A DNA stretch of 64,000 nucleotides from Antedon mediterranea (taxonomy: Eukaryota; Echinodermata; Crinoidea; Comatulida; Antedonidae). Below the pieces are notes generated by a model. That model made no database searches and was not told where the DNA came from. It worked only from the letters and a program-made list of their open reading frames with translations. Below are positions 34,034 through 60,444 of this stretch, in pieces (position 1 is the first letter of the stretch; each line of letters begins with the position of its first letter). The stretch lies in the NCBI RefSeq assembly GCF_964355755.1, contig NC_092676.1, positions 7,980,288 to 8,044,287 on the forward strand, read 5' to 3'. A program made the position numbers and the translations under genes.

Positions 34034-34046
34034 TTTCCTTGCACAG

Positions 34047-39860: not shown

Positions 39861-40040
39861 ATTCTAAATACTGAAGTCAATTATGCACATTTTCCATAAA
39901 GTTATATTTCTAATTAAAAATTTCAATACAAGTTGGGTAGCAATGGGTAGCATATTGTATATGCTTCCATTTTATACCATACAGTGTGTCCATTGACATT
40001 TTAAAGAATAATTTAACCAGAAAATGTGTTTTTTTGGTCA

Positions 40041-41755
40041 TTTTTTTCGGTCAACCAGCATCGGCCAACAGCTTAAGATCTGCATGGCAACTTGTCAAAC
40101 AACTCTCAGGGAAGAGATCTCAAAGTGCCTGCATCATGGGAGAGGATCGTCTTCTAGCATGGAAAACTCACTTCCACAAACTACTATCGGTGGAGACTTC
40201 AGTGGTAGATGACATGGATATCGTCAAAATCTTCAACTTAACCACCAGATAAGCTCCGAGAGGTTCTCCGAGGCCGAGGTGTAAATTGCCTGCAAACAGA
40301 TGAAATCTGGCAAAGCACCTGGTCTTGACGGTCTTCCCATCAAAATATGGAAATTACCTGGCACCCAGAAAGCTCTCACTTCTTTCTGCAATCAAATTCT
40401 TGATGGAAACAGGCCATCAGAATGGGGAATTTCGTTCATATCCCGAAAAAAGGTGATCTTTCAAAACCAGATAACTACAGGGATATTTCATTATCAAAAT
40501 TGGCTGCAAAGATCTACAATCGCCTGATTTTAAATAGGATACGTCCTGTGATTAATGAAGTTTTACGCCCCAACCAGAATGGCTTTCGTCAGGCACGATC
40601 AACAACTACGCACATTCTTGCACTGAGGAGAATTGTTGAAGAGGTTAAGAACCATCACAAAGAGGCAGTCATTATCTTTATTGACTTTCGCAAAGCCTTC
40701 GATTCCATCAATCGCAACATCATGATGAAGATCCTCTTAGCATACGGCATCCCTCATAAAATTGTAGAAGCCATCAGAGTAATGTATATCAATACATCAG
40801 CAGTTGTCCTGACTCCAGATGGTGAGACTGATTGCTTCAACATCGACTCTGGCGTAGTTCAAGGAGACCCTCTTGCTCCATTCTTGTTTATTGTCTGCCT
40901 TGACTATGTAGTGCGATCAGCAACTACATCATCAGACGGTCTCACCCTCCGCCGTAGTAGAAGACATCCAGCTGAAGTACTACCAGACCTGGACTTTGCC
41001 GATGACATCGCCATTCTTGAAGATTCCATACATGTTGCCGAAAATCTACTGCACAGAATTCAACAAGCCACAGAAGCTATAGGTTTATACTTAAACATCA
41101 AGAAGACCCAATTCATACATTTAACCCCTCATCACCTTCTATAACTCTCGCACTGGATGGATCAGCAATAGAACAAGTAGAGGATTTCAGCTACCTCGGA
41201 AGCTACTGTTCATCCACTAACCATGATTTCGAAGCAAGACTTGGTCAAGCATGGGGTGCGCTGAACAGTCTTTCAAAAAATATGGGCATCTCGTATCAAC
41301 AAGTCCACAAAAATCCGCCTCTTTAAGTCAACATTTGAAGCCATTCTTCTTTACGGCTGTGAGACATGGAGTCTTACTTCATCGCTCTCAAAATCATTGG
41401 ATGGAGCATACACCCGCATGCTGAGGAGGAAAGTCCAAAACATCCCATGGTCCTCACACGCCACCAACAAGACACTATATGCCAACCTTCCCCGTCTTAC
41501 GACCATCATTCAAAGACGTCGCATGGGCCTTGCCGGTCATGTTATAAGAAGCTCTGAGCCTGCCTCAAGAGTTCTCCTTTGGGAACCAGAAGAGAAAAGG
41601 AAAGTGGGAAGACCTCAACTGACTTCGCTCGACATTCTGTTGAAAGATACCAAACTAGACCTGAGTGAACTGAGAAAGAGCATGCTTGATAGAGATGTGT
41701 GGAGACAAATTATCATGGCACCCACTTAATAGTGGGATGACATTAAGTAAGTAAG
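40041..41755 (+). pseudogene. RTE-like non-LTR retrotransposon, 5'-truncated
   Basis: The 1,715-bp insert is flanked by an exact 8-bp duplication TTTGGTCA (40,033-40,040 and 41,756-41,763) and ends in a short (TAAG)n tail. The reading passes through frameshifts. It starts with GKAPGLDGLPIKIWK, then gives KPDNYRDISL and QNGFRQARSTTTH. Motif A is FIDFRKAFDSI, motif B GVVQGDPLAPFLF, motif C LDFADDIAIL. After further breaks come LLYGCETWS and RRMGLAGHVIR. The endonuclease is missing. Clade assignment to the RTE side is from overall style and is moderate only. Confidence 0.85.
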
Positions 41756-42414
41756 TTTGGTCAAAGGTCAGCAAAAGCATTTCCGGTCATTTTTTGGGGT
41801 AAACGTTGTGTTAGACTGAATATAAATATGTATTTTCTGAACAATTTGACACCAAAAGCAAATCTGTATGATTTGGTTGTCGAGATATAAGAACCACACA
41901 TTTCTAACCTTTGACCCCGATTTTGGGCATGTTCGCCCCCGATAACGAATTTGGCACATATCCCATGTTGTTCCTTGGGGTCTAATTATCCTATAACAGT
42001 TGAGATATTCTCTCCTAAATTGAATGCATACAAATCTTACCCAGGTCCTAAACTAGTAGTAGTTATTAATGAATAAAGGTCAATGACCTTTGACCCGACT
42101 ATCTGACCAATGGCACAAGTAACCCGAAATTTGCAAAAACTTTATTTTGTTGTTTGACCACTAAAACATAGATGTAGACACCACAGTTGTCTTTTTAAAC
42201 CCAGGAATTGAGGAGTTATAAGCCATCAAATGCCACAAAAAGGTCACTGACCTTTGACCCTCAATATCTCACTAACGCAGCAACTAGAAGGCTGCAAATT
42301 TTTTGGTATTTATTCACACCTAAAGCTACAAGAAAATACCAAAAGACCTTTTATTAGAATTTTTTCAAGGTTACATAGGATAAATGTCACATATAGCCTG
42401 TACTATAGGCCTAG

Positions 42415-42695
42415 ACTGATTAATATATCCATTAAAGACATTTTTTCCCCTAAAATTGTGAATAGGCCTGTACACTTTTAATGTCACGTAATAAACTATT
42501 AGTTTGATCAAGAACTGACAAAATATAATCTAAAGCCAAAATAATTAAATTGTCTGTCAGACAATAGTTTTATTTATTTTTTATTTTTTTACAGAAGTAA
42601 CTTTATTAAAATGGCCTATTTAAAGTCTGATTTTATTCAGATCTAAATTGTTCATGTTTTAGGTGGGGAACAATACATCTTTAATTACTATAACT
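42415..42695. repeat. Segmental duplication gamma, copy 1 (right part)
   Basis: From CTAGACTGATTAATATATCC to ATCTTTAATTACTATAA this matches 46,625-46,905, including GTCTGTCAGACAATAGTTTT and AAGTCTGATTTTATTCAGAT. Its left part (37,846-37,940) lies beyond the fold-back insertion. Confidence 0.85.
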
Positions 42696-43049
42696 AAATG
42701 GTACGCTCGCTTCGCTCGCGTACCATCTAGGTCGTGCCCACAGATGGTTCGCGAATACATAATAATTTCAGCGTTAAAAAACTGGCGATTTCAAATGTAC
42801 GTATCGCAGGACAATAATACATGTCGTTTACAGCTACAGGAACGAATAAATAGACACTGTGATTTATGTACTCAACTAAAATTAGCACCATGGGAATTAC
42901 TTCCGAAAGAGAAACCAATTGTTTAAGTCAAATTTAAACAAACTTAATTTGTGTTTTGTATGTAACATTAGGGTTGAGGGATGGGGAAGAGGATGGGTGC
43001 AAAGAGGAACAATTTTTAAATATTATTCTTTATCCATTTAGTAACGAAA
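42696..43049. other. Non-coding DNA with a GC-rich hairpin
   Basis: Starts with an imperfect palindrome, GGTACGCTCGCTTCGCTCGC followed by GTACC. The 87-aa frame at 42,663-42,926 spans the duplication edge and has no support as a gene. Confidence 0.4.
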
Positions 43050-43375
43050 TATAATTGAACTTATTCAACCTTATGTTCCTAAGCGGTCTCGGAGATCTAG
43101 ATCTGAGTCTCTTCTTGCCCATATATTTCATCCTTCCACTAAGTTTTATGGAAATCGTTCATTTTCTTCGGCATCTGTTTCTCTATGGAATGCGTTGCCT
43201 ATTGAAATCCGTCAGGCTACTTCCACCAGTGTCTTCAAATCTCTCCTCAAAACCCACTTTTTAATTTGTAAATTTCTAAATTGTTCTGTCTTTGTAAAGC
43301 GCATTGAGGCTTTCAGCATAATGCGCTATATCAAGTACCAGTTATTATTATTATTATTATTGTTTTCATGTTTTA
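43050..43375 (+). mobile_element. L2/CR1-type LINE 3' end
   Basis: One frame gives VPKRSRRSRSESLLAH, FYGNRSFSSASVSLWNALP and IEIRQATSTSVFKSLLKTHF, the usual C-terminal end of CR1/L2-type ORF2. It is followed by an untranslated tail TAATGCGCTATATCAAGTAC and (TTA)n. The 5' part is absent. Confidence 0.8.
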
Positions 43376-43824
43376 CAAATAATATACCACTAAACACAGT
43401 AAAACATTGCGACGTAATACTTTGTTGAAACTATCACCGTCCTAGTCGATTGAAATAGTACAGTAGGCCCTACATGTAACGATACATCACTACGACGTGT
43501 ATATTTATATAATGTAAAACAATTTGTGAAAACCACCTCTATTCGGGAAAATCATAAATTCGATTTAATCGTCAATAAATATTAAATTATCTAACTCAAC
43601 TTAATTAGTAGGCCTAATGGTTTTCAATTGTTTCTTAGAGCCAATTCATACTTAAAAGTTGGTTCTTACCCTACCCACCAAAGTTGTTCTGCGTTTAGGG
43701 CATGTGATGTACCGTAGGCCTATCCTCTACTGGTTTTACAACGCTACTCATGCCAGTGAGGGAAGGGTGATGATGTGGGTGGTTTAACTGCAATAATAAA
43801 GATTTTATACATAATATACGGCGA

Positions 43825-44256
43825 GTGAAAACGCTAGCTCTTTATCCGTTTAAAAAAAATTTATATCCAACCTCTGCAGCACAGATTGAAAAAAAAAATG
43901 GATCGAATTTCTGTTATGAGTATACAGTAGTTGCCTTTACGACGCCTGACGGAATAGACACTTGTGGAACAGAGATTGGAATGTTCCATTCATCGCAAAT
44001 CAATACATTTGTATTAACGTATATTAAATCTATCAAAATAGTATTTTTTAAAGAAAATCGGCCTGTCTTCAACATTATGATGCTGTACTCGAGCTGTTCA
44101 ACCGGTTTTCAGCCATTAAAAACAATTATCGTAGGAGGAGATAGGAAAATGCGAAGCATCCTCGTATTATCGTCTGCGGGTATTTTTCAAGACGGACATC
44201 CATTAGACAGTGTATACCACGATCGAAAAACACCCCTATTTGGGGCAAATCGTTGA
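43825..44256 (+). other. Open frame of 143 codons, unrecognised
   Basis: The frame starts MKTLALYPFKKNLY and contains TTPDGIDTCGTEIG. No domain, signal or splice context is evident. It ends 56 bp before the repeat shared with 18.9 kb (44,312-44,445), so it may belong to a transposon. Chance is also possible. Confidence 0.2.
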
Positions 44257-44311
44257 ACCTAAATTCGTTTTAATCGTCAATAACTAATTATCGAACTCAA
44301 TTTAATTAGTA

Positions 44312-44445
44312 AACAGGGTTACATCAGGCGGTTAAAATCAGTACCGAAAGTACGAACCAACTTTATATACCATCGAGTAAACATTCTAGAAATAACGCGC
44401 GATTTACCGAATTTTGCCCTTACGTAAATTTATATAATAGATGTA
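44312..44445 (+). repeat. Dispersed repeat shared with 18.9 kb
   Basis: Inverted match to 18,925-19,065: GAAAGTACGAACCAACTTTA, TATACCAT-GAGTAAACATT and GCCCTTACGTAAATTTATAT. At 18.9 kb it lies inside the 3.9-kb inverted-repeat element. Confidence 0.7.
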
Positions 44446-44743
44446 GGCCTACTATTATTTTTATTTAACGGAAATTTGCCATGACAATTGGTTCATAAAT
44501 TAATTGGATCATTAATTAAACGTGTAACATTTGTATATTAATAATATATATTAAAAAGTTATAAAAAGAGGATAATTGAAAATGTGCCATTAATAAAAAT
44601 GCTGTATAAAAATTGCATCGGCCGGGAACTGAACTATAAATAATAACTCTAATTGTTATATTGTTTAGGTTATAATTTGTGGAACTAATGTTCGATATTT
44701 AAATTGTGTAAATTGTCCTGGAGTATTAATAAAGAAAAAACAT

Positions 44744-44814
44744 TGCATCGGCCGGGAATTGAACCCGGGTCCCCCGCGTGGCAGGCGAGAATTCTACCAC
44801 TGTACCACCGATGC
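44744..44814 (-). tRNA. tRNA-Gly (GCC) with a D-stem change
   Basis: Identical to the other copies except CTGTACCACC for CTGAACCACC on the plus strand. This is a U-to-A change at about position 12, which breaks a D-stem pair and alters box A. The T-run terminator is present. It may be weakly functional or a recent pseudogene. Confidence 0.85.
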
Positions 44815-45010
44815 CTCACATTCTCGATATCTCGTGTTGTTGAACTTTGAACAAATTCAAATTTATACAAATTCATGATGACATAATCATTTCCTTTTTT
44901 TCAGGGAAAGTAAAAATCAACTTCTTGAACAAAATTGGGAATTGAAAGAAAATTTATGTATTAATAAATAGATTCTTTTTAATTCTTTATATACATCTCG
45001 ACAAGACGTT

Positions 45011-45168
45011 TTACATCGAATGTGCAATGGATGAAATATTGTTAGACAGAGTTGACGTCACAATGTTGACGTTTGACAGGTGATCCTCTGAATGAGGCTT
45101 TAATATACGAACGTAACCAGCTGGAAAGAGACCAATTTTACTGCCGATACGACCATACGCCCAGCCAT
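45011..45168 (-). pseudogene. Duplicated fragment of the F-BAR gene's last exon
   Basis: Nearly identical to 47,918-48,078: the second half of the SH3 domain (GWAYGRIGSKIGLFPAGY) through the same stop. The acceptor and the first residues of the exon are missing; the sequence switches at 45,168 to the beta block. It has no splice acceptor, so it should not be translated as an SH3 exon. Confidence 0.85.
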
Positions 45169-45512
45169 TACTAATTACTGATTGCATTATGGGAGTATGT
45201 TTCCATACGTGTTTGATCCCAAAAAAATAAGCGCTATTATTCTTTCTGCCTCGATAAAATTACCCATGTTCAACGCGTTATTAGTTTTGTTTGTGACCTA
45301 TTTAACCGGTGACCATGCCTTCCACAAACTTATTTTACTTTTAGGCCTAGGCCTACAAATTTTATTTAAGCTCATTATACTTTGTTTGTGGAAATAAACA
45401 AACAATGTCTATCAGGATTAAAACAGGAAAACAAAATATAATGTGTCATAAGAATATTCCAATATCCAGGTTTTCCTCTCACATTGTACATTGTCATCTA
45501 TTTTAACACATA

Positions 45513-45810
45513 AGCTTGATTCCCACTTGCCACGTACCCAACGCAAGTGAGTTGACCAATCATAAGCGATAGCTTGGATGATCCATCGCAGTATGATTAG
45601 TCAAGTCACCTTAGCTCTGTCTACACTATAAAACTAGTTTGACCCAAAAAATGTGCCCAAATGGTAGTGATATGCCAAAATACCGTAGTGATATGACGTC
45701 ATCATGTCAATATATGTGAAGATCACATTTTTTGTAACATAAAATTTGATAGTGTGGACAGAGCTTTACGTTGCGTTAAATATTAAAATGTATACAGTGG
45801 GAACCCAAGC
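45513..45810. mobile_element. MITE family B with nested MITE family A
   Basis: The family B ends are AGCTTGATTCCCACTTGCC and CAGTGGGAACCCAAGC. Within it, 45,613-45,765 is a family A element (TAGCTCTGTCTACACTATAA ... AATTTGATAGTGTGGACAGA) with a central TGACGTCATCATG. The GCAACGCAAG block of family B lies on the left of the insertion and CGTTGCG on the right. Confidence 0.82.
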
Positions 45811-46463
45811 ATTACCTTTCCATGATTTATCTACACTATCATGTTCTTCAAAATCTGACTGAAAAATATTGTAGGACCTGCGAAAACAAAATAAACAGGG
45901 ACATAAGAATGTTTTCCGTAGATCTTCTAATTGTAACTCTGGGTTATTATTCTTTGATTGTTTTTTAGGGTGGGTTACAATTAGAAGGTGGGGGGGGGGG
46001 GGTTACTATTAGAGTATTGGGTTACTATTACTAATCTTAAATTAGACACCACCTGAACATAGTAACCCACCCCAACTTTTCCGGTCAGCAACTTATAGCA
46101 AAATAATAAAACAGTACGAATAAACAAATTTGGTTGAACTCTAAGATAAACTCAAAAACACTCAATCCTCCCCCACTCCCGAGATCAAACATCTCCTTAT
46201 TTTCAAAATACGGCTGCATCATAAGTTTTATTTAAGTTTTACGGCTGCATCATAAGTGACTCTGGGTTCTATTAGAGTAGTGGGTTACTATTAGAAGATT
46301 TACGCTAGTACGGCACTTTACTTTAATTCGAAAATGTTATAAAAAATTGAAAATTAAAAATGTTGTTATCGTATGAATAAAAAATACGTAAGTGTGACTA
46401 AAAACATAAAATAGATAAATATATTTTCGCAAAACAATTACATAGTAGTAATTAAAAAAAATT

Positions 46464-46534
46464 TGCATCGGCCGGGAATTGAACCCGGGTCCCCCGCGTG
46501 GCAGGCGAGAATTCTACCACTGAACCACCGATGC
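46464..46534 (-). tRNA. tRNA-Gly (GCC)
   Basis: Full-length copy, identical to the canonical unit. An eight-A run on the plus strand before it provides the terminator. Its downstream flank (46,535-46,905) is the copy of the 37.8-kb flank that lacks the fold-back element. Confidence 0.95.
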
Positions 46535-46905
46535 TACATGTTATATATAATAGTATTATTGTATGGCCTTTACTTTACTTGCTTATTTATTTATTATATT
46601 AGTCTCCCCCCCCCCCAGCCCCAGCCTAGACTGATTAATATATCCATTAAAGACATTTGTCCCCTTAAATTGTGAATAGGCCTATGACATGTTAATGTCA
46701 CGTAATAGTTTGACCAAGAACTGAAAAAATATAATGTAAAGCCAAAATACTTAAATTGTCTGTCAGACAATAGTTTTATTTATTTTTTATTTTTTTACAG
46801 AAGTAACTTTATTAAAATAGCCTATTTAAAGTCTGATTTTATTCAGATCTAAATTGTTCATGTTTTAGGTGGGGAACAATACATCTTTAATTACTATAAT
46901 GTAGG
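46535..46905. repeat. Segmental duplication gamma, copy 2 (empty site)
   Basis: Matches 37,846-37,940 joined to 42,415-42,695. The bases AGCCTAGACTG are contiguous here, where the 37.9-kb locus carries 4.5 kb of fold-back element. Confidence 0.88.
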
Positions 46906-47600
46906 CCTACTATTATTTTAATTTAACGGAAATAAAATTTGCCATGACAATTGGTTCATAAATTAATTGGATCATTAATTAAACGTGTAACATTTGTATA
47001 TTAATAATATATATAAACAAGAATATTTCTTACAAAAAAACGCTGCTTGCTTATTGTTATTGCTAAGGTCAAGTCTGGGGGTCACTTCGTCAAGCCTAGA
47101 TACTTCAAGTATCCTATTACAAACAAAAACTTCAATGGACTGTTTTGATAATAATTACAGTGAATTATAGTAATATCATGGGACTCATAAATACCAGAAA
47201 TGCTTTGGGATTTGTCATTAGACTCTTTTCCCAGCCGTTTTTTGGATTCAACAGGTGGTACCTATAAATTATAGTCGAGTTTCCATTTTAACAAAAATTT
47301 CAAAGTGTAGTACTATACTGCTGCTTGATTTCATCTAATGAATGAGTCATCTCGTGTGACGTAGCGGGCTAGAGCAGCAGCGTGAAAAGTTATAAAAAGA
47401 GGATAATTGAAAATGTGCAATTAATAAAAATGCTGTATAAAAATTGCATCGGCCGGGAACTGAACTATAAATAATAACACTAATTTGTATATTGTTTAGG
47501 TTATAATTTGTGGAACTAATGTTCGATGTTTAAATTGTGTAAATTGTGACAAGTTCAGGTCAAAGGAAAACTAAACTGCCCTGGAGAAATAATAAAGAAA
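46906..47600. repeat. Segmental duplication alpha, copy 2, 5' part
   Basis: Duplicates 44,446-44,740 with an extra block at 47,012-47,387. Includes a 20-bp tRNA-Gly 3' remnant (GCATCGGCCGGGAACTGAAC, about 47,444; its counterpart is at 44,617). Confidence 0.8.
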
Positions 47601-47606
47601 AAACAT

Positions 47607-47677
47607 TGCATCGGCCGGGAATTGAACCCGGGTCCCCCGCGTGGCAGGCGAGAATTCTACCACTGAACCACCGATGC
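47607..47677 (-). tRNA. tRNA-Gly (GCC)
   Basis: Canonical full-length copy, 240 bp downstream of the F-BAR stop codon and on the same strand. The terminator run AAAGAAAAAA precedes it on the plus strand. Confidence 0.95.
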
Positions 47678-47783
47678 CTCACATTCTCAATAGCTCGTGT
47701 TGTTGAACTTTGAACGATAACGTTATCGCTCCTTACGCTATACTTCTGTATTATACAAATTCATGATGACGTAATCATTTCAT

Positions 47784-47789
47784 TTTATT
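47784..47789 (-). promoter_or_regulatory. Candidate polyadenylation signal of the F-BAR gene
   Basis: AATAAA on the minus strand, 129 nt after the stop codon at 47,918. It precedes the tRNA-Gly at 47,677 by about 110 bp, so cleavage would fall before the tRNA gene. Confidence 0.4.
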
Positions 47790-47917
47790 CAGGGAAAGTA
47801 AAAATCAACTTCTTGAACAAAATTGGGAATTTAAAGAAAATGGGCGCAGGCAAACACAATTTATGTATTAATAAATAGATTCTTTTTAATTCTTTATATA
47901 TATCTCGACAAGACGTT

Positions 47918-50900
47918 TTACATCAAATGTGCAATGGATGAAATATTGTTAGACAGAGTTGACGTCACAATGTTGACGTTTGACAGGTGATCCTCTGAAT
48001 GAGGCTTTAATATACGAACGTAACCAGCTGGAAAGAGACCAATTTTACTGCCGATACGACCATACGCCCAGCCATCGTCATTGGTAGGACCGATTTGGGA
48101 AAAGACTTCACCTGAAAAATGACAGATAAATGACGTATTGAGCTACAAGAACTTTGTTAGACCTGTTTTTATCGAATTTATTATATATACAGTACAAGAA
48201 AGAAAATAGATTCAAGGCAAATCAATTAATCTTTGCATAGAGATAGATATTTTCATCATAGTCTCTAATAATAATAATAATAATAACAGGATTTTTATAG
48301 CGCACATACCACTCAAGAGTGCTCAAGGCGCATTAAAAAAAAATAAAAACATAAAAACATCATAATCTCTATGGCCCTTGCAAAGAATTAGTTTACATTG
48401 TGGTCCTTAAAAACGGGTCCTCCTAAATCCCAAACATGGGCCTGCCCTACCAAGCACTGCCAATAAAAGTGTACGAACCATGACTTTGTATGGGATGGAG
48501 TTCTAAAGTGATTTTTATGTTTGTTGTGGTTTTAGACAGAGAGGTTATCGAGATGACCGAGAGACGAAAAAATTATAAAGTTACATTACGCATTGTTCTA
48601 TGGTTCAATAAGATAAAGTGATTGGCAACAAATTAATATCTGTAATTTTAAAAAAAAGAGACCAAAAAGCAAATAATCTGATCAAGCATGGTGCTGTACC
48701 AACCTCTTTGAAGAGCCAGTTCATCATGTTGGCCAGGTTCAAAGTTCCATAATGCTTGGACATTGTGTTCTGTTTGGTCTGAAGGCAGCGATATTATATG
48801 AAAGCTTCTATACGACTTGGTCTTTTTTGCGACGTCATCATTTATTTTATTCAAACTATTTTTTCCAGGTATATCACTGCCAGTCTCTCGACTGACAGTA
48901 CGACGGAACTGATCACGAGCTTCAGAACTATGGACTACGCATGACCGACTATTTGGTAACCAACTACGTTGATCATGAGAATGATTAGTGTGAGCAGAAT
49001 TTATTTTACTGCCAGAGGTATCAGTGCTCCAGTGAGAGCTGCTGTGTTGCTCAAAGACGTGTGATGTCACAGGAGATGGTACATCCTGGTGGTCGACTGG
49101 TGGTTTTGCGTCACTGGTACTCTGTGATCGTTGGGTTGACGTGACGCTTGGCTGAGTGGCTTTCTGGTGTGCCAGTGAAAGAAGTCGTTGCTGGACTGCT
49201 GATATGGCTAAGTTTTGAGAAACTCGCTTTCTGTCAGTCTCGATTAAGTGTTTGGTTACATAGTCTAAGACAAAAATAAATGACTGATAAATAATTACGG
49301 TACGTATGTAGTAGGCCTAGCTGGTGTACCACCGGAGAAAAAACCAGAGACGGAGAATGTGTGTATCCACAACTTTGCGCTGATTACTTGCTGCATTATA
49401 GGAGTATGTTTCCATACGTGTTTGATCCCAAAAGAATAACAAAATAAGCGTTATTATTCTTTCTGCCTCGATACAATTACCCATGTTCAACGCGTTATTA
49501 GTTTTGTTTGTGACCTATTTAACCGGTGACCATACCTTCCACAAACTTATTTTACTTTTAGGCCTAGGCCTACAAATTTTATTTAAGCTCATTATACTTT
49601 GTTTGTGGAAATAAACAAACAATGTCTATCAGGATTAAAACAGGAAAACAAAATATAATGTGTCATAAGAATATTCCAATATCCAGGTTTTCCTCTCACA
49701 TTGTACATTGTCATCTATTTTAACACATAAGCTTGATTCCCACTTGCCACGTACGCAACGCAAGTGAGTTGACCAATCATAAGCGATAGCTTGGATGATC
49801 CATCGCAGTATGATTAGTCAAGTCACCTTAGCTCTGTCTACACTATAAAACTAGTTTGACCCAAAAAATGTGCCAAAATGGTAGTGATATGCCAAAATAC
49901 GGTAGTGATATTACGTCATCATGTCAATATATGTGAAGATCACATTTTTTTGTAACATAAAATTTGATAGTGTGGACAGAGCTTTACGTTGCGTTAAATA
50001 TTAAAAATGTATACAGTGGGAACCAAGCATTACCTTTCCATGATTTATCTACACTATCCTGTTCTTCAAAATCTGACTGAAAAATATTGTACCACCTGCG
50101 AAAACAAAATAAAACAGGAACATAAGAATGTTTTCCGTAAATCTTCTAATTGTAACTCTGGGTTATTATTCTTTGATTGTTTTTTAGGGTGGGTTACAAT
50201 TAGAAGGGGGTTACTATTAGAGTATTGGTTACGATTACTAATCTTAAATTAGACACCACCTGAACATAGTAACCCACCCCAACTTTTCCGGTCAGCAACT
50301 TATAGCAAAATAATAAAAAAGTACAAATAAACAAATTAGGTTGAACTCTAAGGTAAACTCAAAAACACTCAATCCTCCCCCACTCCCGAGATCAACATCT
50401 CCTTATTTTCAAAATACGGCTGCATCATAAGTTTTACTTAAGTTTTACGGCTGCATCATAAGTGACTCTGGGTTCTATTAGAGTAGTGGGTTACTATATT
50501 AGAAGATTTACGCTAGTATGGCATTTTATTTTAATTCGAAAATGTTATAAAAAAATGAAAATTAAAAATGTTGTCATCGTATGAATAAAAAATACGTAAG
50601 TATGACTAAAAACATGAAAAAGATAAATATATTTTCGCAAAACAATTACATGTAGAATTTAAAAAAATTTGCATCGGCCGGGAATTGAACCCGGGTCCCC
50701 CGCGTGGCAGGCGAGAATTCTACCACTGAACCACCGATGCCTTCGGAATAGACACGAAACATTACAATTATATTGTAATACAAATAATTTTTTTAATAGA
50801 AACATAGGCATATTATAGTAACAGATATCAGTAGAATTTGTGCTGCCTAATATTATGTAATTGTGGACCATTATTAAATTTTTGTACCTGTATATACTGA

Positions 50901-53900
50901 AAAAATGACAATGCTGTGGGTATCAGTGGCTGGATCTCAATGGAGATACAAAAAAAAAGCGAAAAGCTAAATCAAAACGATAATTAAAACAGCCAACAAA
51001 GTTAGCAGGGCTTTCGGCGGGCAACACTAGCCCTTCATCAGTGCAATATAGGCCTATATTGTAATAACTGTAAACATTTTGTATGGGTCAAACCTCTTAG
51101 TACGAGAGAGTTCCTCCGTTTTAAAGGAGAGTAACAAATAAATATTATTATATTTTTCTTATTATAATTATTAATTATTATTATTATTATCATAAGTAGG
51201 CCTGGTATCTAATTAATAATATTAGGTCAAGGGAAACTTAATTGTTCTGGAGATTTAATAAAGAAAAAATTGCATCGGCCGGGAATTGAACCCGGGTCCC
51301 CCGCGTGGCAGGCGAGAATTCTACCACTGAACCACCGATGCCTTCCAGAGATAAAAGACACATTACAACTATATACTAATAAATAAAATAAAATAAATAA
51401 AAACAAGTTCGAAAAAGACCGTTTAACAGATACCATATGTAAAATATAAGTAAATAAATAATTGATTATAACATTTTAATTATTTTATGTTTAGGTTGTA
51501 CTTTTATGTCTAGGTAAAACAAATGCTCAAGAATAATAGAATATTTAAATTGTGTATGTAATTTGTTGTGACAGGATTAGTCAAAACAAATCTTAATCGC
51601 CTTGGAGAAATAATAGCCTAAAGAAAGAAAAAATTTGCATCGGCCGGGAATTGAACCCGGGTCCCCCGCGTGGCAGGCGAGAATTCTACCACTGAACCAC
51701 CGATGCCTTCGACAAAATTAAGAAACATTACAATATAATTTTCAATAAAAATCGAATATTCTAATCGACCCTTTTTTAAAAATATAACAGAAACAAATCC
51801 AATATCTCTTAATACATTAATTGATAAAGTATATTAATAATTTTGTAGGCCTATACTATATTGTGTGTTTTTAAAGCGATAAACAAGGTTTCAGAATATT
51901 TAAACTAGGCCTAAAAAGGTTGATATGCAATTCGTCATTTGTCCTTAAAAAGTTTGAGATGCCACGTCGCAAAGTGACTTTAGTTTCCGCCAGGATTTAG
52001 CAAAACTTAAGTGCCCTGGACAACTGCTGAGAAATTACAACTACACACATACGGGATATAATTTGTCTACAAGGACGTGGAATGTTCCATTATCTGAACT
52101 TTTAAATATTATTGTTTTAATAATATTTTATAGTACTGATTGTTAAACTAGAATAATTTATAATAAATCATCTTTTAAATTATTAATTATAATTTGTAAG
52201 AAATATTATTTCTTGTTTATACATACTTAGACATATTAAGTGCGCGTTCCGCTGATAAAAACGTTAGGTCTTAAGATATATATAGTATATTTTATTCCAT
52301 TCCATTCTGTAAGGGGTGAGTTTCCCGCTGTTGAATGAGATGATGAAATCAATAAATAAAACAAAGAACACAAACAAAATTATAATATAGTATATTGCAA
52401 TAACTTACTGATCTTCATCCTTTCCACCATTTTTCAATAACATATTGATTTTATCAGAGTCAAGGTGGTTAACATCAATATCCTAAAAAAATATAAACAT
52501 CTAAAACATTATTCTGTTACTATACAAACTAGCATAAAATTGCATCGGCCGGGAATTGAACCCGGGTCCCCCGCGTGGCAGGCGAGAATTCTACCACTGA
52601 ACCACCGATGCTTCTGGTTGGTTCAACTGATACTGGTACGAAACTATTCCGGTTTGCCTGTCTAATTTACCTCAAACACTGGCCAGTAAGGTGCCAATGT
52701 CCCTCCATGGGTGTCGCTCCACTCTAATTTACCTCAAACACTGGCCAGTAAGGTGCCAATGTCCCTCCATGGGTGTCGCTCCACTCTAATTTACCTCAAA
52801 CACTGGCCAGTAAGGTGCCAATGTCCCTCCATGGGTGTCGCTCCACTCAAATTTACCTCAAACACTGGCCAGTAAGGTGCCAATGTCCCTCCATGGGTGT
52901 CGCTCCACTCTAATTTACCTCAAACACTGGCCAGTAAGGTGTCAATGTCCCTCCATGGGTGTCGCTCCACTCTAATTTACCTCAAACACTGGCCAGTAGG
53001 GTGTCAATGTCCCCCTCCATGGGTGTCGCTCCACTCTAATTTACCTCAAACACTGGCCAGTAAGGTGCCAATGTCCCTCCATGGGTGTCGCTCCACTCCA
53101 ATTTACCTCAAACACTGGCCAGTAAGGTGCCAATGTCCCTCCATGGGTGTCGCTCCACTCTAATTTACCTCAAACACTGGCCAGTAAGGTGTCAATGTCC
53201 CTCCATGGGTGTCGCTCCACTCTAATTTACCTCAAACACTGGCCAGTAAGGTGCCAATGTCCCTCCATGGGTGTCGCTCCACTCAAATTTACCTCAAACA
53301 CTGGCCAGTAAGGTGCCAATGTCCCTCCATGGGTGTCGCTCCACTCTAATTTACCTCAAACACTGGCCAGTAAGGTGTCAATGTCCCTCCATGGGTGTCG
53401 CTCCACTCTAATTTACCTCAAACACTGGCCAGTAGGGTGTCAATGTCCCTCCATGGGTGTCGCTCCACTCTAATTTACCTCAAACACTGGCCAGTAAGGT
53501 GCCAATGTCCCTCCATGGGTGTCGCTCCACTCCAATTTACCTCAAACACTGGCCAGTAAGGTGCCAATGTCCCTCCATGGGTGTCGCTCCACTCTAATTT
53601 ACCTCAAACACTGGCCAGTAAGGTGTCAATGTCCCTCCATGGGTGTCGCTCCACTCTAATTTACCTCAAACACTGGCCAGTAGGGTGTCAATGTCCCTCC
53701 ATGGGTGTCGCTCCACTCTAATTTACCTCAAACACTGGCCAGTAGGGTGTCAATGTCCCTCCATGGGTGTCGCTCCACGTTTGAACGTCGTCGGCAGCAT
53801 TTGCCAATGCAACTGTACTCTTTATTTTCTGATAAACATCTTCATATCTAAAAATAGCAACGATTGCTTGTTATTAGTCGAATCGGGTCCTCCTAAATAC

Positions 53901-56900
53901 CAAGACCTACCAAGACCTACCAAGAACTACCAAGACCTGTCAATTTAAAGTGTTAATTTAACGAAATATGATACAGTATATATAGACTTCTAATAGCATT
54001 TCCAACAATAAAACCTCAATTTTAGCGCGATAGACACCAAAAATGTTAAATAATCGACAAGCTTCGCGTTCGCGAAACGAACTGAGTTGATGCATACATT
54101 GCGTCACAAATGTCCGCATTGCGTCAACTAGTATGACCTACCAAGAACTACCAAGACCTGTTAATTTTAAGGTTTTATTTTAACGAAATATGATATATGT
54201 AGACTTCTAATAGCTTTTTCAACAATAAAACCTCAATTTTAGCGTGATATAGACACCAACAATTTTTAATGTAGACAGTAGGCCTACGACAGGAGAGCTG
54301 CGTCGAGTGTTAGTGAGCCATACTCTAGTTGACGCAATACGTACATTGTGACGCATGTATGCATCAAAAACTTAGTTCGTTTCGCGAAGCTTGTCGATTT
54401 ATGATTATTTAACATTTTTGTAACATTTTTGGTGTCTATATCGCGCTGAAATTGAGGTTTAATTGTTGGAAATGCTATTAGAAGTCTATATATATCATAT
54501 TTCGTTAAATTAATACTTTAAATTGACAGGTCTTGGTAGGTCTTGGTAGTTCTTGGAAGGTCTTGGTAGGTCTTGGTATTTAGGAGGACCCGTCGAATCG
54601 ATTCACCGGTACATGAACAATTAGGCCTACCCAGCTTGCTACGTATGTATATTATGCATTACGTCAGTAATCACGCATAATGAAGAATACGGTACCGCGC
54701 AGTATCGAAGACGTAACGCAGATGTGCGCAAGTGGCCCTCCAACGCTTTGTTTCGACATTATGTTAGGCCTAATGGATGTTTTTTTGTTTACCGCTGCGC
54801 ACTGCTCAGGGGCCCTCATAAGCTCCGATACACCACTGTAGACGCGTGCTAAACTAAACGTATAAGTTGAATGTTTTCTGTATAATACTTACCCAGGTAA
54901 AGCGGATATATCAAGTGCGTTGACAAACTTAAGCATCTCCTCCTTTAAGGTTCCAAGCCTTTCCTTTTCAAGTAACTGACATTTATCAAATTGCGCCAAC
55001 ATTTTCTGAAGAAGAAAAAAACATTTCAAGAGAACAAGGTTTTATAATAATTAATATACATAATTTTAAGTAGAAAATTGGAAAATGTTAGCTCGGATCA
55101 TCACTTGCATATCCATCTGATTACTGCGCTGTGATTGTGTACCCGATAAAACTAGATTCTCTCAATGTCAAATATTCGTGTGAATTGCGAGTATTAGGGC
55201 CTATTCGTGTTATTGTATGCAAAAATGCTGTAGTGCATCAATTAGACTCCGAAGTTTACATTAGTTTTTTTTTATATATACCGTAATGTATTTGACTTCT
55301 TTATTGCTTAAAGCGTGGTTCCCACTAGAACGCCACGCAGCGATGTATCGACGCAAAGTGCTAATTGCGTAATCATAGGAACCGACGACGCAATTAGTGC
55401 TGCAAACATCGTGGGTTTGATTTCACGCAGGCGGAGGCAAACACATTTATTGGAATGGCATTTGCTTACGGCGCTTAGGTTGCGTCACTAGTAGGAACCA
55501 TTAACGCGTACCATTTATTGTGTGCTTCTCATGCCACGTGACTATTGACATTATTCTATTTTTAACTTAGTATTTTTCTTGACTTAGGTGGAAATGCCCG
55601 AGTTCGAATTATATATTTATTTCTTTTGTTTATATAAGCGTGGTAGCCACTAGAACGCAACGCAGCGACGTATTGACATAGTGATGTACGTCTGCGTAAT
55701 CACAAGTGGGAACCGACGACGCAATAGTGCTGCAAAACATCGTAGGTTTGCTTTCACGCAGGCGAGGGCAAACACAATTATTAGAATGGCATTTTCTTAC
55801 ATTGCTAGTGGGAACCAAACTAAAGCGTGGTTCCCACTAGCGACGCAACGCAAGGACGTAACGCAACGCAACAAGTGAATTGACCAATCACAAGCGATGG
55901 CTTATTCGCTTGTGATTGCTAACTGTCTATAACTTCGCTTGTCATTGGTTAAAACGCTTGCGTTGCGTTTACGTCCTTGCGTTACGTTCTAGTGGGAACC
56001 AAACTTAACGCACTTATTGAGTGCTTCTCATGCCACGTGACTCTTGTCATTATTCTATTTATACCTTATAGTATTTGTTCTTGATGTTGCCATTACACAT
56101 CAATATGCCTTTAAGGTAGAATTCCTTTGCAGAGTCTCGATGTTTTGCAAATTGTTCTGCTCGTTTGTATAATTTATTTTTCGTTTCCGTTCCAATCCCT
56201 TCTTTTTTACTTTCTTCTTCGGCGAACTTATTGGCTTTGTGCGCTGAAATTATAGCCATGTGATACGCCTACAAAATTAGATACAATTGCGTTTTATTAA
56301 AAACGTAAATTTATTTTATTTTGTTTTCAATTATAACGCCAGGTAGCGAGGAGTCAATAGAAAATAGAAAATTGCACCAAGAAAAAAATATACAAATAGG
56401 CCTACATAATTTAGAAGTGTATTACACTTAATTTAATATTGTCTGTTACGGGGCGCCGTTTAGATAATTATGTCCCAAACGGCGTCCCGTATTGTAACGA
56501 TTATCTAATTAATACTGTATTAACAAAAATATACAAATGAAATAATTACTTTTTTAGCTTTTCTGATTTTCGATAACAACCTCATATAGCCACTTTGTGC
56601 ATCTGAGAATTCTTCTTCGAATTTTCTTATTTCTTGGACTCCACTAAATATTGTTTTATGACAATGTGACTTTTTCCATCTACAAAAATAAAATTAACGT
56701 TAGCACAAACTTGCAAACATTCAATCCATTTTTATTTCATGTTAACTGAAATAGGATAAATATAATTCGTTTTTTAATTTGAATTCACTCTTGGATTTGA
56801 TAGAATTCTCACAAATGGATTGAATTCTCGTAGAACTCAAAAACTCGTCACGGTTAAGAAGGTATTTTCACACAGATCGCGAGGAAGTTTATGATTATGC

Positions 56901-59900
56901 AAGTATCCAAACAAGAGCTTTGCATTATGATAAATAGGCCTATCGAAAACCTTGACTGGAGGTTAAGTCAAAGTTATTTTTTGAACAAAAAAACGTCTGT
57001 ATTTCAGTTAAATGTTTTTTTTTTGACTAATTTTTGGTGAAAGTTAATGATACTTCAAAATGACCCACTTTTTTTCGAAATCTTTTATTTTTTTGGAATT
57101 AGTCAAAGCGACAATACATCTTTAACAGACACTACGCGCCGCAGAGTGTAATGTACAGTTACAAATATTTTCGCACACTTTCCTATCTTGGTAAGGCGAG
57201 CTCTGTGTCCTGTTGTTAGATTGCCTTTTTGAATACAGTGTATTTTATTTTGATTATTCTTCGCACCTGTCGTCCACACATGCCACGCCTATTCTGATAC
57301 CTACTTTTGCATGAAAGAAAAGGGTCCTTCGTCTCCTAGAAGCCTTTTCTGACATTGCTCGTGTAAATTGGCTCTGTGTCCAGCTTCTTGTATACATGAA
57401 CATAGTGCTTCTAACGTCGAACCATACTCATAACCTGAAACAACAAATGGATATTTTCAATATAATGGTAAATAGTGATCATGAAAACAATGAGATTAAA
57501 GATAGAAAGTATATAGCGCTTTAGACCGCTCGGGCTGACTGCATACCTTTTTAAAAATGAAACACATTACCCATGGTAAGGTCTATTTGTTCCAAAATAA
57601 ATAAATAGCTCTATTAATAATTCCATAACACAAAATGTTGGTTTTAATAATGTGGGTGCCTATTATTAAAAGGATATTTAGGTTGTTTAAAATTAAAATG
57701 TTATCAGATGATTAAATATAAATAATATAACTTGAATTTAACGTTTCTTGTATTTTTATTCAACTTTAGAGCTTTATTTTCATGCTATAGCAAAAATTAT
57801 CCACCGTATATCCACCATCTTTGTTCACCTTCTAGGGAGACACCAGACATGTTATTGCATTAGGTTAACTACCTAACTACTGAAATAAAGTGTTCCTGGT
57901 TTTTATAGAACAATTTTGCCAAATTTTGTATTTGACCATTTTAAGGGAAATTTATGTTTTTTCGTCATGATTTTTGTTACAAATATTTGATTTATGTACA
58001 ATCAACCAGTCTATATTATATTTAAAATTCATGCCTGTACACGAGCTTTAAAAGGATATTTAGATGTTTTTAAATAAAAATAACGTGATACCGTATAATT
58101 TAAAAAAAAAATATTAGAGTCAGGAGTGGGATTTGAACCCACGCCTACAAGAGTAGACTGCGACCACTCGGCCATCCTGACAACATGCCACTGTATTTTT
58201 TTGTAAAACTCATTACCCTGGTAAAAAAATAAATAGCTTGATTAATTTCAATAAACGAATGTTGGTTTCAATCACGTGGGTGCTCATAATTAAAAGGATA
58301 TTTAGATGTTTTTAAATCAAAATAACGTAGTACCGTATAATAAAAAAAATATTGTCAGAAGTGGGATTCGAACCCACGCCTACAAGAGTAGACTGCGACC
58401 TGAACGCAGCGCCTTAGACCGCTCGGCCATCCTGACTACATGCCTCTGTCTAATTTTTGTAAAACTTATTACTCTAGTAAAAAATAAATAGCTTTAATAA
58501 TTTCAACAAACGAAATGTTGGTTTAAATTAATCACGCGGGTGCTATTAAAAGGATATTTAGATGTTTTAAATCAAAATAACGTAATACTGTATTACGTTA
58601 TTTTTTAGAAAAAAATATTGTCAGAAGTGGGATTCGACTTAGACCGCTCGGCCATCCTGACTACATCCCCCGGTTTTATTTTAAAACTCATTACCCTTGG
58701 TTAAGCATTTTATCCAAATTAAATGGTTTTTTTTATTCATAACACGAAATGCAGGTGTTATATTGAGATGTTTTTAAATCAAAATAATAATGTAATACTG
58801 TATAACAAACATTAGTGTCAGAAGTGGGATTCGAACCCACGCCTACAAGATTAGACCGCTCGGCCATCCTGATCCGGTGTCCACTTATTTGGGGAAAACA
58901 CATTGACGTGGTGGTAAGTTCATGAATGTTTTTATTTGGGAAATAAATCCTTATATTAATTGGAAAAATTAACACGGTAAAGAGCTATAATATTCGTGAA
59001 CTCCGTTATATATTGAAGAAATGTCGGTTTGAATCAGAATAGGTGGTTTCTAAGCAAAATAACATAATAGAAAAGGATACGAAAAGATTAGTGTCAGAAG
59101 TGGGATTCGAACCCACGCCTACAAGAGTAGACTGCGACCTGAACGCAGCGCCTTAGACCGCTCGGCCATCCTGACTGCCCGCTTTTTTTTACCCTGGTAA
59201 GGCGTTTTCGCCAAATAAATAGCTTTTGTTATTCATAACACAAAATGCAGGTGTCAATTAAAAGGCTACACGCCAATTATTTTTGAACGACACATTAAGA
59301 TCAAGACCTATAATATTCATGAACTCTGTTATATTGAAGAAATGTCGGTTTGAATCAGAATAGGTGGTTTCTGAGCAAAATAACATAATATAGGCCTAAA
59401 ATGATACTAAAAGATTAGTGTCAGAAGTGGGATTCGAACCCACGCCTACAAGAGTAGACTGCGACCTGAACGCAGCCTTAGACCACTCGGCCATCCTGAC
59501 TTGACTACATGCCCTCTGTTTGTTTTACCCTGGTAAGGCCTTTTTTCCCACAATAAATAGCTTAGGTTATTCATAACACGAAATGCAGGTGTCAATTAAA
59601 AGGATATTGAGATGTTTTTAAATCAAAAAAATAACGTAATACTGTATAATAAAACATAATTGTCAGAAGTGGGATTCGAACCCACGCCTACAAGAGTAGA
59701 CTGCGACCTGAACGCAGCGCCTTAGACCGCTCGGCCATCCTGACTACATGTTCCCTTTCTTCGGGGAAACCATAGAATATCTCTATGGGGAAACACATTG
59801 ACGTGGAGGCCTATCCATGCATCTTTTCTGAGAAATAATTATTGTTATTAATTTGAAAATATGAAAAGTTGGTTTAAATCAAGTGAATACCTATAATAAA

Positions 59901-60444
59901 CATTGTTTACCTGTTTTCAAAGCGTAATACGTAATTTAAAATGATAAAAAAAAAATGGTGTCAGAAGTGGGATTCGAACCCACGCCTACAAGAGTAGACT
60001 GCGACCTGAACGCAGCGCCTTAGACCGCTCGGCCATCCTGACTATTATGCATATTTTGTGAAAAATAACTTTCTATAGTACCTAGATATAATCAGACTAT
60101 TTTACAGTAGCCGTCAACCTGTTTGCGTACCTTTTTTCAATACATTAGTTGTCCATTTTTCTTCCCATCGTCTCAGTTTCTTTGCGTATTGCACTTCTAA
60201 CTCCGCCCTCTCTTGTATCATTGACATAAAATCATCACATGACCTACACAATGGAACAGTATTTACATAATCAATAATCATCAATAACATTACAATTTTA
60301 TTTTTACAATATTTTTTTTTTATTTTCTATAGTACTTCAAATAATAATAAACTTAACTTACTTAAAACCGTTTTCTATTCGTTCTATGATAATTCGATAC
60401 TGATCAATATCCCAGAAACTGTGTTCGTACTTTTTACTAGACAT
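47918..60444 (-). CDS. PACSIN: Syndapin/PACSIN-like F-BAR and SH3 protein
   Basis: Ten exons are recognised: 60362-60444, 60131-60243, 57305-57434, 56550-56679, 56065-56268, 54893-55005, 53727-53847, 52409-52482, 48704-49264 and 47918-48111. Phases agree at every join except exon 8 to 9, where a small exon must be missing. The product is about 573 residues or more; vertebrate PACSINs have about 420-490. Residues about 5-298 form an F-BAR domain: SFWDIDQYRIIIERIENG, IQERAELEVQYAKKL and KKAYHMAIISAHKAN, ending in PYWPVFE as syndapins do. A long Ser/Thr/His/Gln linker without NPF motifs follows, then an SH3 (ALWNFEPGQHDELAL, DDGWAYGRIG, GLFPAGY). Known syndapins bend membranes and recruit dynamin and N-WASP through SH3. 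It is divergent to DNAAF1. tRNA arrays, MITEs and a splice-site minisatellite fill its introns. Confidence 0.9.
48112..48703. other. F-BAR intron 9: LINE tail and MITE relic
   Basis: (TTA)n-type LINE 3' tail on the minus strand at 48,268-48,335 (AGCGCACAT, AAGGCGCATT). A relic beginning GGGTCCTCCTAAATCCCAAA at 48,415 is related to the MITE in intron 6. Confidence 0.6.
48704..49264 (-). CDS. PACSIN: F-BAR gene exon 9: linker and start of SH3
   Basis: A 561-nt exon with acceptor TTTTTGTCTTAG and donor AAAGAG|GTTGG. The first part (HLIETDRKRVSQNLAISAVQ) could be helical. Then comes a polar, probably disordered stretch rich in Ser, Thr, His and Asp (SQSTSDAKPPVDHQDVPSP), with no NPF motif. The last 20 residues begin the SH3. 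The reading frame needs a preceding exon ending in phase 1, whereas exon 8 ends in phase 2. Confidence 0.85.
49731..50028. mobile_element. MITE family B with nested MITE family A (duplicate)
   Basis: Same nested structure as 45,513-45,810. The inner family A element is at 49,830-49,983. The central motif here is TTACGTCATCATG. Confidence 0.82.
50670..50740 (-). tRNA. tRNA-Gly (GCC), in F-BAR intron 8
   Basis: Canonical full-length copy in the same orientation as the host gene. The terminator run AAAAAAA is on the plus strand before it. Confidence 0.95.
50900..51045 (-). repeat. Retroelement-type repeat with hammerhead-like core
   Basis: On the minus strand it reads CTGATGAAGGGCTAGTGTTG, then CCCGCCGAAAGCC. 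This is a CUGAUGA box, a GGGC/GCCC stem-loop and a GAAA box. It continues to CCAGCCACTGATACCCACAG at the other end. A deleted copy is at 24.1 kb. The core has an extra A after CUGAUGA and extra bases before GAAA, so a functional ribozyme is doubtful. Penelope-like elements are known to carry hammerheads; membership here is inference. Confidence 0.45.
51271..51341 (-). tRNA. tRNA-Gly (GCC), in F-BAR intron 8
   Basis: Canonical full-length copy. Plus-strand upstream run AAAGAAAAAA as terminator. Confidence 0.95.
51636..51706 (-). tRNA. tRNA-Gly (GCC), in F-BAR intron 8
   Basis: Canonical full-length copy. Terminator run GAAAGAAAAAA on the plus strand. Its flanks (CTTGGAGAAATAATAGCC-AAAGAAA) resemble those of the 47.6-kb copy, so it is an older duplicate. 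Confidence 0.95.
51707..52408. other. F-BAR intron 8, no exon seen
   Basis: AT-rich. A degraded copy of a tRNA-Gly flank (TTAGCAAAACTTAAGTGCCC-TGG) near 51,997-52,030 lacks the tRNA. The small exon required by the reading frame may lie in this intron but is not identifiable. Confidence 0.4.
52541..52611 (-). tRNA. tRNA-Gly (GCC), in F-BAR intron 7
   Basis: Canonical full-length copy with a short terminator (AAAA on the plus strand). It lies about 50 bp from the distal end of the splice-donor minisatellite. Confidence 0.94.
52662..53778 (-). repeat. 62-bp minisatellite made of an exon end and its splice donor
   Basis: About 18 tandem units. On the minus strand each reads TGGAGCGACACCCATGGAGG, then GACATTGGCACCTTACTGGC, then CAGTGTTTGAGGTAAATTAG-AG. 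The first unit in gene orientation is the true 3' end of F-BAR exon 7 (WSDTHGGTLTPYWPVFE, then donor GTAAAT). The remaining 17 repeat that coding end plus donor within intron 7. The unit length is not a multiple of three and each unit has an in-frame TAG six bases after the donor G, so read-through stops at once. Plus-strand frames with SLHSNLPQTLA are array translations. Confidence 0.93.
53727..53847 (-). CDS. PACSIN: F-BAR gene exon 7, its end amplified as a minisatellite
   Basis: Acceptor TGCTATTTTTAG, donor TTTGAG|GTAAAT. It enters in phase 2 and leaves in phase 0, consistent with exons 6 and 8. It encodes YEDVYQKIKSTVALANAADD and then QTWSDTHGGTLTPYWPVFE, matching the syndapin F-BAR end (HVYRELEQAI..., MNWPQFEEW). 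The 3' 51 nt are the source of the 62-bp array. On the 5' side a MITE ends 37 bp before the acceptor junction, leaving little room for a branch point of host origin. Confidence 0.85.
53885..54591. mobile_element. 707-bp MITE with 8-bp target duplication, F-BAR intron 6
   Basis: The ends GGGTCCTCCTAAATACCAAG and its complement CTTGGTATTTAGGAGGACCC are perfect inverted repeats. They are flanked by GTCGAATC at 53,877-53,884 and 54,592-54,599. Arms run about 250 bp. A second, diverged copy of the left arm interior lies at 54,130-54,270, indicating internal duplication. An 8-bp duplication is the habit of hAT elements, but the termini are not typical enough to name the superfamily. Confidence 0.85.
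54893..56268 (-). CDS. PACSIN: F-BAR gene exons 5 and 6
   Basis: Exon 5 (56,065-56,268; 204 nt, phase 0 at both ends) encodes the helical AYHMAIISAHKANKFAEE through MCNGNIKNKYYK. Exon 6 (54,893-55,005) encodes KMLAQFDKCQLLEKERLG through NALDISALPG. The two carry the lysine- and glutamate-rich long helices of the F-BAR. Intron 5 holds three family B MITEs side by side. Confidence 0.88.
55311..56004. mobile_element. Three family B MITEs in a row, F-BAR intron 5
   Basis: Copies at about 55,311-55,508, 55,637-55,820 and 55,822-56,004. Each begins GCGTGGT-CCACTAG-ACGC and ends CTAGTGGGAACCAAAC or its variants. The first two share an internal GAACCGACGACGCAAT and a CACGCAGGCG-GGCAAACAC block and are sisters. 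The third resembles the 7.1-kb type (TTGACCAATCACAAGCGATG ... CATTGGTTAAAACGCTTGCG). Confidence 0.85.
56550..57434 (-). CDS. PACSIN: F-BAR gene exons 3 and 4
   Basis: Exon 3 (57,305-57,434) encodes GYEYGSTLEALCSCIQEAGH and then RANLHEQCQKRLLGDEG. Exon 4 (56,550-56,679) encodes WKKSHCHKTIFSGVQEIRKF and then SDAQSGYMRLLSKIRKAKK, aligning with the syndapin wedge-loop region. Donor GCAAAA|GTAGGT and acceptor TTTTTGTAG give matching phase 2. Confidence 0.88.
58118..58181 (-). pseudogene. tRNA-Leu pseudogene, anticodon arm deleted
   Basis: About 20 nt covering the anticodon arm and D-arm edge are missing (GCGACCACTCGG on the plus strand). The acceptor and T arm remain, with changes (GGAGTGGGATTTGAACCC). 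Confidence 0.9.
58353..58436 (-). tRNA. tRNA-Leu (anticodon CAG), F-BAR intron 2
   Basis: Full 84-nt class II tRNA on the minus strand: starts GTCAGGATGGCCGAGCGGTC, anticodon loop TTCAGGT, long variable arm, T arm GGTTCGAATCCCACTTCTGA, discriminator A. An A run on the plus strand before it (AAAAAAAT) gives a Pol III terminator. Confidence 0.95.
58619..58661 (-). pseudogene. tRNA-Leu pseudogene, 43-nt remnant
   Basis: Only the acceptor stem, part of the T arm and the D arm remain. The middle 41 nt are deleted between GGGATTCGA and CTTAGACCGC. Confidence 0.92.
58816..58873 (-). pseudogene. tRNA-Leu pseudogene, anticodon and variable arms deleted
   Basis: The T arm is intact, but the plus strand jumps from CTACAAGA to TTAGACCGCTCGG. 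The terminal base is changed (CCTGAT). Confidence 0.92.
59092..59175 (-). tRNA. tRNA-Leu (CAG), F-BAR intron 2
   Basis: Identical in its 84 nt to the copies at 58,353, 59,661 and 59,959. No strong T run lies directly after the 3' end (GATTAGTG upstream on the plus strand), so termination may be less efficient. Confidence 0.94.
59419..59500 (-). tRNA. tRNA-Leu (CAG) with 2-nt deletion, probably impaired
   Basis: 82 nt. CGCAGCCTT replaces CGCAGCGCCTT at the D-arm and anticodon-stem junction, and GACCACTCGG carries a D-loop change. The anticodon and T arm are intact. Confidence 0.8.
59661..59744 (-). tRNA. tRNA-Leu (CAG), F-BAR intron 2
   Basis: Full-length canonical copy. Flanks (AAAGGATATTGAGATGTTTT, AATACTGTATAATAAAA) are shared with neighbouring units, showing tandem duplication of about 240-330-bp blocks. 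Confidence 0.95.
59959..60042 (-). tRNA. tRNA-Leu (CAG), F-BAR intron 2
   Basis: Full-length canonical copy nearest exon 2 of the host gene. A ten-A run on the plus strand shortly before it supplies a terminator. Confidence 0.95.
60131..60444 (-). CDS. PACSIN: F-BAR gene exons 1 and 2 (start codon 60,444)
   Basis: Exon 1 (60,362-60,444) starts MSSKKYEHSFWDIDQY and ends TTTTAA|GTAAGT. Exon 2 (60,131-60,243) begins after CATTGTGTAG and encodes SCDDFMSMIQERAELEVQYA and then RRWEEKWTTN. This matches the start of the syndapin F-BAR. The start is chosen because it is the first Met before the conserved SFW and lies close to the divergent gene. Confidence 0.88.

Follow-up and report, generated by a model that had tools for sequence, protein, structure and literature searches.

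A minisatellite of 18 exon-end copies, each with a 5′ splice site, in a syndapin-like gene of the crinoid Antedon mediterranea: a likely young mirage

Introduction

What does it mean for a gene to carry the end of one of its exons, together with the 5′ splice site, 18 times in a row? The question is posed by a syndapin-like gene in a 64,000-nt stretch of Antedon mediterranea DNA (contig NC_092676.1; hereafter, the window), and it can be put as a choice between a switch acting on splicing and a tolerated accident.

The first-pass annotation of this DNA knew of no named system of the kind; two, however, are already in print. In amphioxus, minisatellite-like duplications of exon-intron boundaries are known as mirages, a name that goes back to Adh3; they are described for Adh3 and for the globin genes BflGb6 and BflGb9 (PMC3087553). 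PGBD5 provides cases of 60 and 108 bp with imperfect repeats, and TnC is also mentioned (PMC3902484). Mirage units measure 10-160 bp (PMC3087553, PMC3902484), Adh3 data and globin RT-PCR are said to suggest that regular splicing is undisturbed, with cryptic use of copies held possible, BflGb6 haplotypes carry 6 and 3 units, and the Adh3 repeat is somatically unstable (PMC3087553). In humans, the IFI6 (6-16, G1P3) minisatellite gives rise to multiple splice donors (Turri et al. 1995, cited in PMC4526556), and two downstream units are described as being used as donors, which generates isoforms (PMC4526556).

Results

The host gene, which lies on the minus strand, was modeled splice site by splice site from sequence alone (Table 1). 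The model runs from an ATG at 60444 to a TAA at 47918 and comprises 1785 nt including the stop, encoding 594 aa; all 10 introns are of the GT-AG type. Pfam detects FCH (5.1e-15) and SH3_9 (6e-11) domains in the product, which in the PDB matches human PACSIN2 (3haj, 3.4e-45) and, at 1.1e-39, a chain labeled Syndapin (3i2w) that is presumably the Drosophila protein. The predicted protein is of the syndapin/PACSIN type, with an F-BAR domain followed by a C-terminal SH3 domain and with PACSIN-related sequence. The exon 7/8 junction falls after residue 298 and coincides with the end of the F-BAR match: of the 15 F-BAR rows for syndapin/PACSIN chains that the PDB search listed, 14 end at query residues 298-302 and one at 322. 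The syndapin-like F-BAR identity proposed in the first-pass annotation is borne out by these matches, and its assignment of exons 7 and 8 and of their phase agrees with our 11-exon model.

Table 1. Coordinates of the gene and of the array in the window (a slash marks a splice site)
Feature	Position	Strand	Basis or remark
Syndapin/PACSIN-like gene, 11 coding exons, F-BAR + SH3	47918..60444	-	modeled from sequence
Exons 1-4	60444-60362, 60243-60131, 57434-57305, 56679-56550	-	sequence model
Exons 5-6	56268-56065, 55005-54893	-	sequence model
Exon 7 (121 nt), entered in phase 2 and left in phase 0	53727..53847	-	model; last 51 nt = exonic part of unit 1
Intron 7, 1244 bp	52483..53726	-	sequence model
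Exon 8, in phase with exon 7	52409..52482	-	sequence model
Exons 9-11	50095-50034, 49264-48704, 48111-47918	-	sequence model
Minisatellite, 62 bp x 18	52661..53778	-	TRF and unit-by-unit reading
Donor 1, GTAAAT after GAG	53721..53726	-	sole donor of 18 yielding the 594-aa protein (model)
17 further identical donors GAG/GTAAAT, intron 7	52665..53664	-	last exonic bases 53665 ... 52671
Two consecutive 7-unit blocks, units 3-9 and 10-16	52784..53653	-	same variant order

Over the end of exon 7 and most of intron 7 lies a minisatellite to which TRF, run on the window, assigns a period of 62, 18.0 copies and 97% matches. Read on the gene strand, the unit consists of the last 51 nt of exon 7 (TGGAGCG...TTTGAG) followed by GTAAATTAGAG. 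Sixteen of the 18 units measure 62 bp; unit 13 has 64 bp owing to a 2-nt insertion, and unit 18 contributes 61 matching bases, its last base being different or absent before unique intron sequence begins. Apart from these two peculiarities, the units vary only at positions 28 (A/G), 33 (C/T) and 59 (A/G/T). The string GAG/GTAAAT occurs 18 times in the 18 units, and only copy 1 is attached to the upstream part of exon 7. TRF and the unit reading thus agree on what the first-pass annotation had described, an exon end with its 5′ splice site amplified into 18 copies, and its estimate of about 17 further donors within intron 7 proves to be exactly 17. The intronic part of the array (53726-52661, 1066 bp) makes up 86% of intron 7.

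A chance match between exon and unit is ruled out, because the unit is identical, letter for letter, to an in-frame coding exon end. We also rejected the idea that a dispersed repeat had inserted at the exon, since all matches listed by the genome searches lie at the syndapin locus. The eight best matches to the unit (8 of 8 listed, being best candidates, so that a copy elsewhere is not strictly excluded) fall inside the array, as do all those listed among the best candidates for protein residues 280-298; neither search lists an unlinked copy of the array in this genome.

The junction can be compared with that of a second syndapin gene, which a genome search locates near 20.42 Mb of the contig that also bears the array; it should be noted that this array-less counterpart is a same-genome paralogue and not a sister-species orthologue. 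Exon 7 of the paralogue likewise has 121 nt, enters in phase 2 by our reading, and ends in TTTGAG/GTAATC. In the 30 kb fetched around the paralogue, TTTGAGGT has a single occurrence on the gene strand, and the junction is free of arrays. A 66-bp repeat of 2.2 copies is present in the paralogue intron, starting about 200 bp in and not including the junction. Since the paralogue shares the 121-nt exon 7, the phase and a single TTTGAG/GT, the junction looks ancestral, and the two sequences are most simply explained by an old intron and an array added locally in this gene. For the same reason, namely that position, exon length, phase and boundary are common to both genes, we rejected the gain of a new intron.

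The consequences of donor choice are, in the model, sharply divided. With donor 1, exon 7 has 121 nt and the frame stays open to residue 594. Every later donor (17 of 17) would give one and the same product, ending in FEVN with the stop after residue 300, two codons on. As the first-pass annotation had pointed out, an in-frame TAG stands just past the first donor; all later donors include it, and for this reason they share a product whatever the length of the extension modulo 3, and in-frame extensions are excluded in the model. This stop precedes the exon 7/8 junction by anything from 53 nt with donor 2 to 1047 nt with donor 18. Stops at least 53 nt upstream of an exon junction are expected to elicit nonsense-mediated decay, and transcripts made with later donors are therefore expected to decay; if translated, they would yield an F-BAR domain without linker and SH3.

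Little in the local sequence distinguishes donor 1. It is not a weak site as judged by its score of 7.08 bits, the third among the gene's 10 introns on a position matrix. All 18 donors and the 51 nt of exon sequence upstream of them are nearly identical, so that position would be the sole advantage of donor 1, apart possibly from a weaker upstream hairpin: just upstream of the donor, units of the G28 variant (10 of 18) form a hairpin of -12.2 kcal/mol, compared with -6.6 (donor 1) and -7.9 kcal/mol. Predicted folding of exon 7 with further array (193 nt) is not notable (z -0.96; 31 of 200 shuffles as good), and a two-unit inner stretch gives z -1.80 (8 of 200 shuffles as good).

The internal pattern of the array records part of its history. 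Units 3-9 and 10-16 form two consecutive blocks between which there are 0 substitutions, the sole difference being the 2-nt insertion in unit 13. A repeated block of at least 7 units arises in a share of 0.0001 of 20,000 unit-order shuffles (unit 13 coded as the type it has once the insertion is disregarded, unit 18 as consensus). The ends of the array do not stand out: units 1 and 2 have the same sequence, and the only peculiarity of unit 18 is its last base. Because a 7-unit block is repeated without substitutions, the block expansion appears to be recent and is the latest visible growth; it also hints at copy-number variation between haplotypes or in somatic tissue, age and copy-number change being read here from the internal pattern of one haplotype. 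The youth of the array in turn accounts for the near-invariance of its intronic copies, which therefore is not evidence for constraint.

How often such an array would arise by chance can be estimated roughly. In 284 kb, consisting of the window and 22 stretches of 10 kb (3 around the paralogue and 19 at hand-chosen round coordinates, hence not random), there are 29 arrays with a period of at least 20 and at least 2.5 copies, 28 without the syndapin array; their mean unit is 70 bp. A donor-like word of at least 7.0 bits is present somewhere in the unit of 6 of the 28 other arrays, so that such a word alone is not special. Extrapolation from this small, non-random sample to 354 Mb gives, roughly, some 36,000 arrays, the founding units of which would occupy about 0.7% of the genome. 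The genome being this rich in minisatellites, blind placement should meet some junctions; with 150,000 introns assumed, it would catch, again roughly, about a thousand donors before selection, and one such array is therefore not surprising. In another mirage candidate, at 6047-6309 of one sampled stretch (L029), no clear exon could be seen by eye.

Several further features of the window were recorded. The 3′ part of the syndapin gene is partly duplicated in tandem (44443-46534 vs 46901-50740; four aligned pieces, 89-97% identical); in the downstream duplicate, exon 9 recurs (about 45816-45877), as does most of exon 11 (45014-45172, with the same stop codon by our reading), and the exon 10 region is missing. 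Intron 6 contains, some 40 bp upstream of exon 7, a MITE-like foldback element (53885-54591) whose arms are 85% identical over 251 bp and whose ends bear the direct repeats GTCGAATC; its relatives are dispersed on all eleven large contigs, with at least 121 match rows, both foldback strands counted. Thirteen tRNA genes, eight of them tRNA-Gly(GCC) and five tRNA-Leu(CAG), are located at 37775-52611 and 58353-60042, all on the minus strand; one tRNA-Gly (52541-52611) adjoins the array within intron 7, and the tRNA-Leu cluster lies in intron 2. A 39-bp x 38 array at 32513-34036 translates on the minus strand, with frame breaks, into the 13-residue repeat LPNIKDTGVDKRQ. The word AGGCCTA is found 39 times and its reverse complement TAGGCCT 40 times in the window, together about 20-fold the 3.8 roughly expected from base composition, and both words recur often in most of the stretches sampled. 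Open frames resembling reverse transcriptase, from two elements, are recognizable by eye at 38910-41726. The window has a GC content of 34%. Among 37 homeodomain matches in the genome, four from the cluster on contig C2 were read: two have the ends RRMKAKKE and RRMKYKKE, which resemble those of echinoderm Hox8 and Hox7, and the Ubd-A peptide of protostomes is absent from all four, as would suit an echinoderm host.

Discussion

The array shares with amphioxus mirages units that span an exon-intron boundary, one copy in the authentic exon and the rest in the intron, many with splice signals. Here, the intronic copies each have a donor, the boundary itself being that of the sequence model, supported by the paralogue exon. 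In the amphioxus clusters the inner copies are homogenized; the present array shows a repeated 7-unit block, but its edges are not set apart. The likeness has its limits. In BflGb6, the cluster edges are described as escaping homogenization (PMC3087553), whereas here unit 1, on the exon side, equals unit 2; and BflGb6 duplicates the acceptor side and BflGb9 the donor side, whereas all 18 near-identical copies of the present array contain a donor. Moreover, the published mirages that we found come from amphioxus, that is, from cephalochordates, while the present array belongs to Antedon mediterranea, in which splicing is modeled from sequence. In the literature searched, where subscription journals are thinly covered, none of the matches listed describes a mirage-type array in this gene or host, and the search provided no usable passage on competition between identical donors.

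IFI6 is the nearest donor-specific precedent, in that a minisatellite supplies several donors, downstream units included. Its unit is reportedly 12 nt long. IFI6 units are thus short and the later donors make isoforms, whereas here the unit has 62 nt and, in the model, later donors bring a stop. Intron gain by tandem duplication, as described for potato RdRp and in the Rogers model (PMC4974935), also involves duplication across an exon-intron boundary, but no new intron is seen here, the position being common to the paralogue. Variable internal tandem repeats in human segmental duplications form another related class, in which boundary minisatellites alter gene structure by lengthening exons or introns, or by creating introns, between paralogues (PMC2812944).

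We consider it likely that the array is a young mirage minisatellite in which donor 1 is mainly used and the other copies are nearly neutral. The last 51 nt of exon 7, with the donor and about 11 intron bases, would have been duplicated in tandem to the 3′ side; the authentic exon would have retained copy 1, and all further copies would have fallen in intron 7. Growth would have proceeded by block duplication, as in unequal exchange or replication slippage. Splicing would mostly join donor 1 to exon 8, since definition of the 121-nt exon would run from the upstream acceptor to the first donor, and since transcripts from the other donors carry an immediate stop and should undergo nonsense-mediated decay. 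The remaining copies would be intron filler under little selection. In short, we are probably dealing with an accident that has been tolerated, not with a switch.

A role for the copies, whether through copy number or as U1 decoys, is less likely than this young and near-neutral mirage. If donors 2-18, or intron retention, were used in a fraction of transcripts set by copy number, the products would be decayed mRNA or a 300-aa F-BAR-only protein without SH3. It is in keeping with such a rheostat that 17 alternative donors lead to a single product, which stops about where the F-BAR match to PACSIN ends; that downstream repeat units of IFI6 can serve as donors (PMC4526556); and that contraction of an intronic repeat in dog LHX3 is described as accompanying aberrant splicing. 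However, amphioxus mirages are reported or suggested not to disturb splicing (PMC3087553, PMC3902484), and a long-standing function is unlikely because the array is so young. We regard this reading as unlikely, and its stricter form, in which exon 7 is extended more or less often according to how many downstream donors there are, so that the output of this syndapin paralogue is switched, as more doubtful still. The copies might instead keep U1 snRNP bound to intron 7 and so titrate it or suppress premature cleavage and polyadenylation, a purpose that 17 intact donors within 1.07 kb, each scoring 7.08 bits, would suit. Yet, alone among the gene's 10 introns, intron 7 contains no AATAAA and no ATTAAA on the gene strand, which leaves little to shield, and a single locus is not expected to titrate U1. 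This makes a decoy or shield highly improbable.

Two further explanations concern the nature of the array itself. Its inner copies could be on the way to recruitment as new exons, a model proposed for amphioxus globin mirages (PMC3087553) and for tandem duplications (PMC4974935). That intron or exon gain is underway here is nevertheless very unlikely, given that the intron position is common to the paralogue, that the unit appears by eye to lack an acceptor and pyrimidine tract, and that the unit length of 62 nt is not divisible by 3. Near-identical repeats are also prone to mis-assembly, so that the copy number might be an assembly or haplotype artifact; but the assembly is chromosome-scale (contigs C1-C11 of 22-41 Mb, C12 of 0.57 Mb), the array measures 1.1 kb and has internal variants, and the stretch read contains no N, which makes us give an artifact hardly any credence.

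The array suggests that mirages, described in lancelets, may occur in other deuterostomes too. Were the rheostat true after all, it would set a full F-BAR + SH3 protein against an SH3-less F-BAR or decayed mRNA, with a copy number varying from allele to allele and perhaps somatically. For the study of 5′ splice-site choice, the locus is a natural experiment: 18 donors with near-identical flanks stand 62 nt apart, one choice alone leads to the full protein, and an array-less junction is available in the paralogue.
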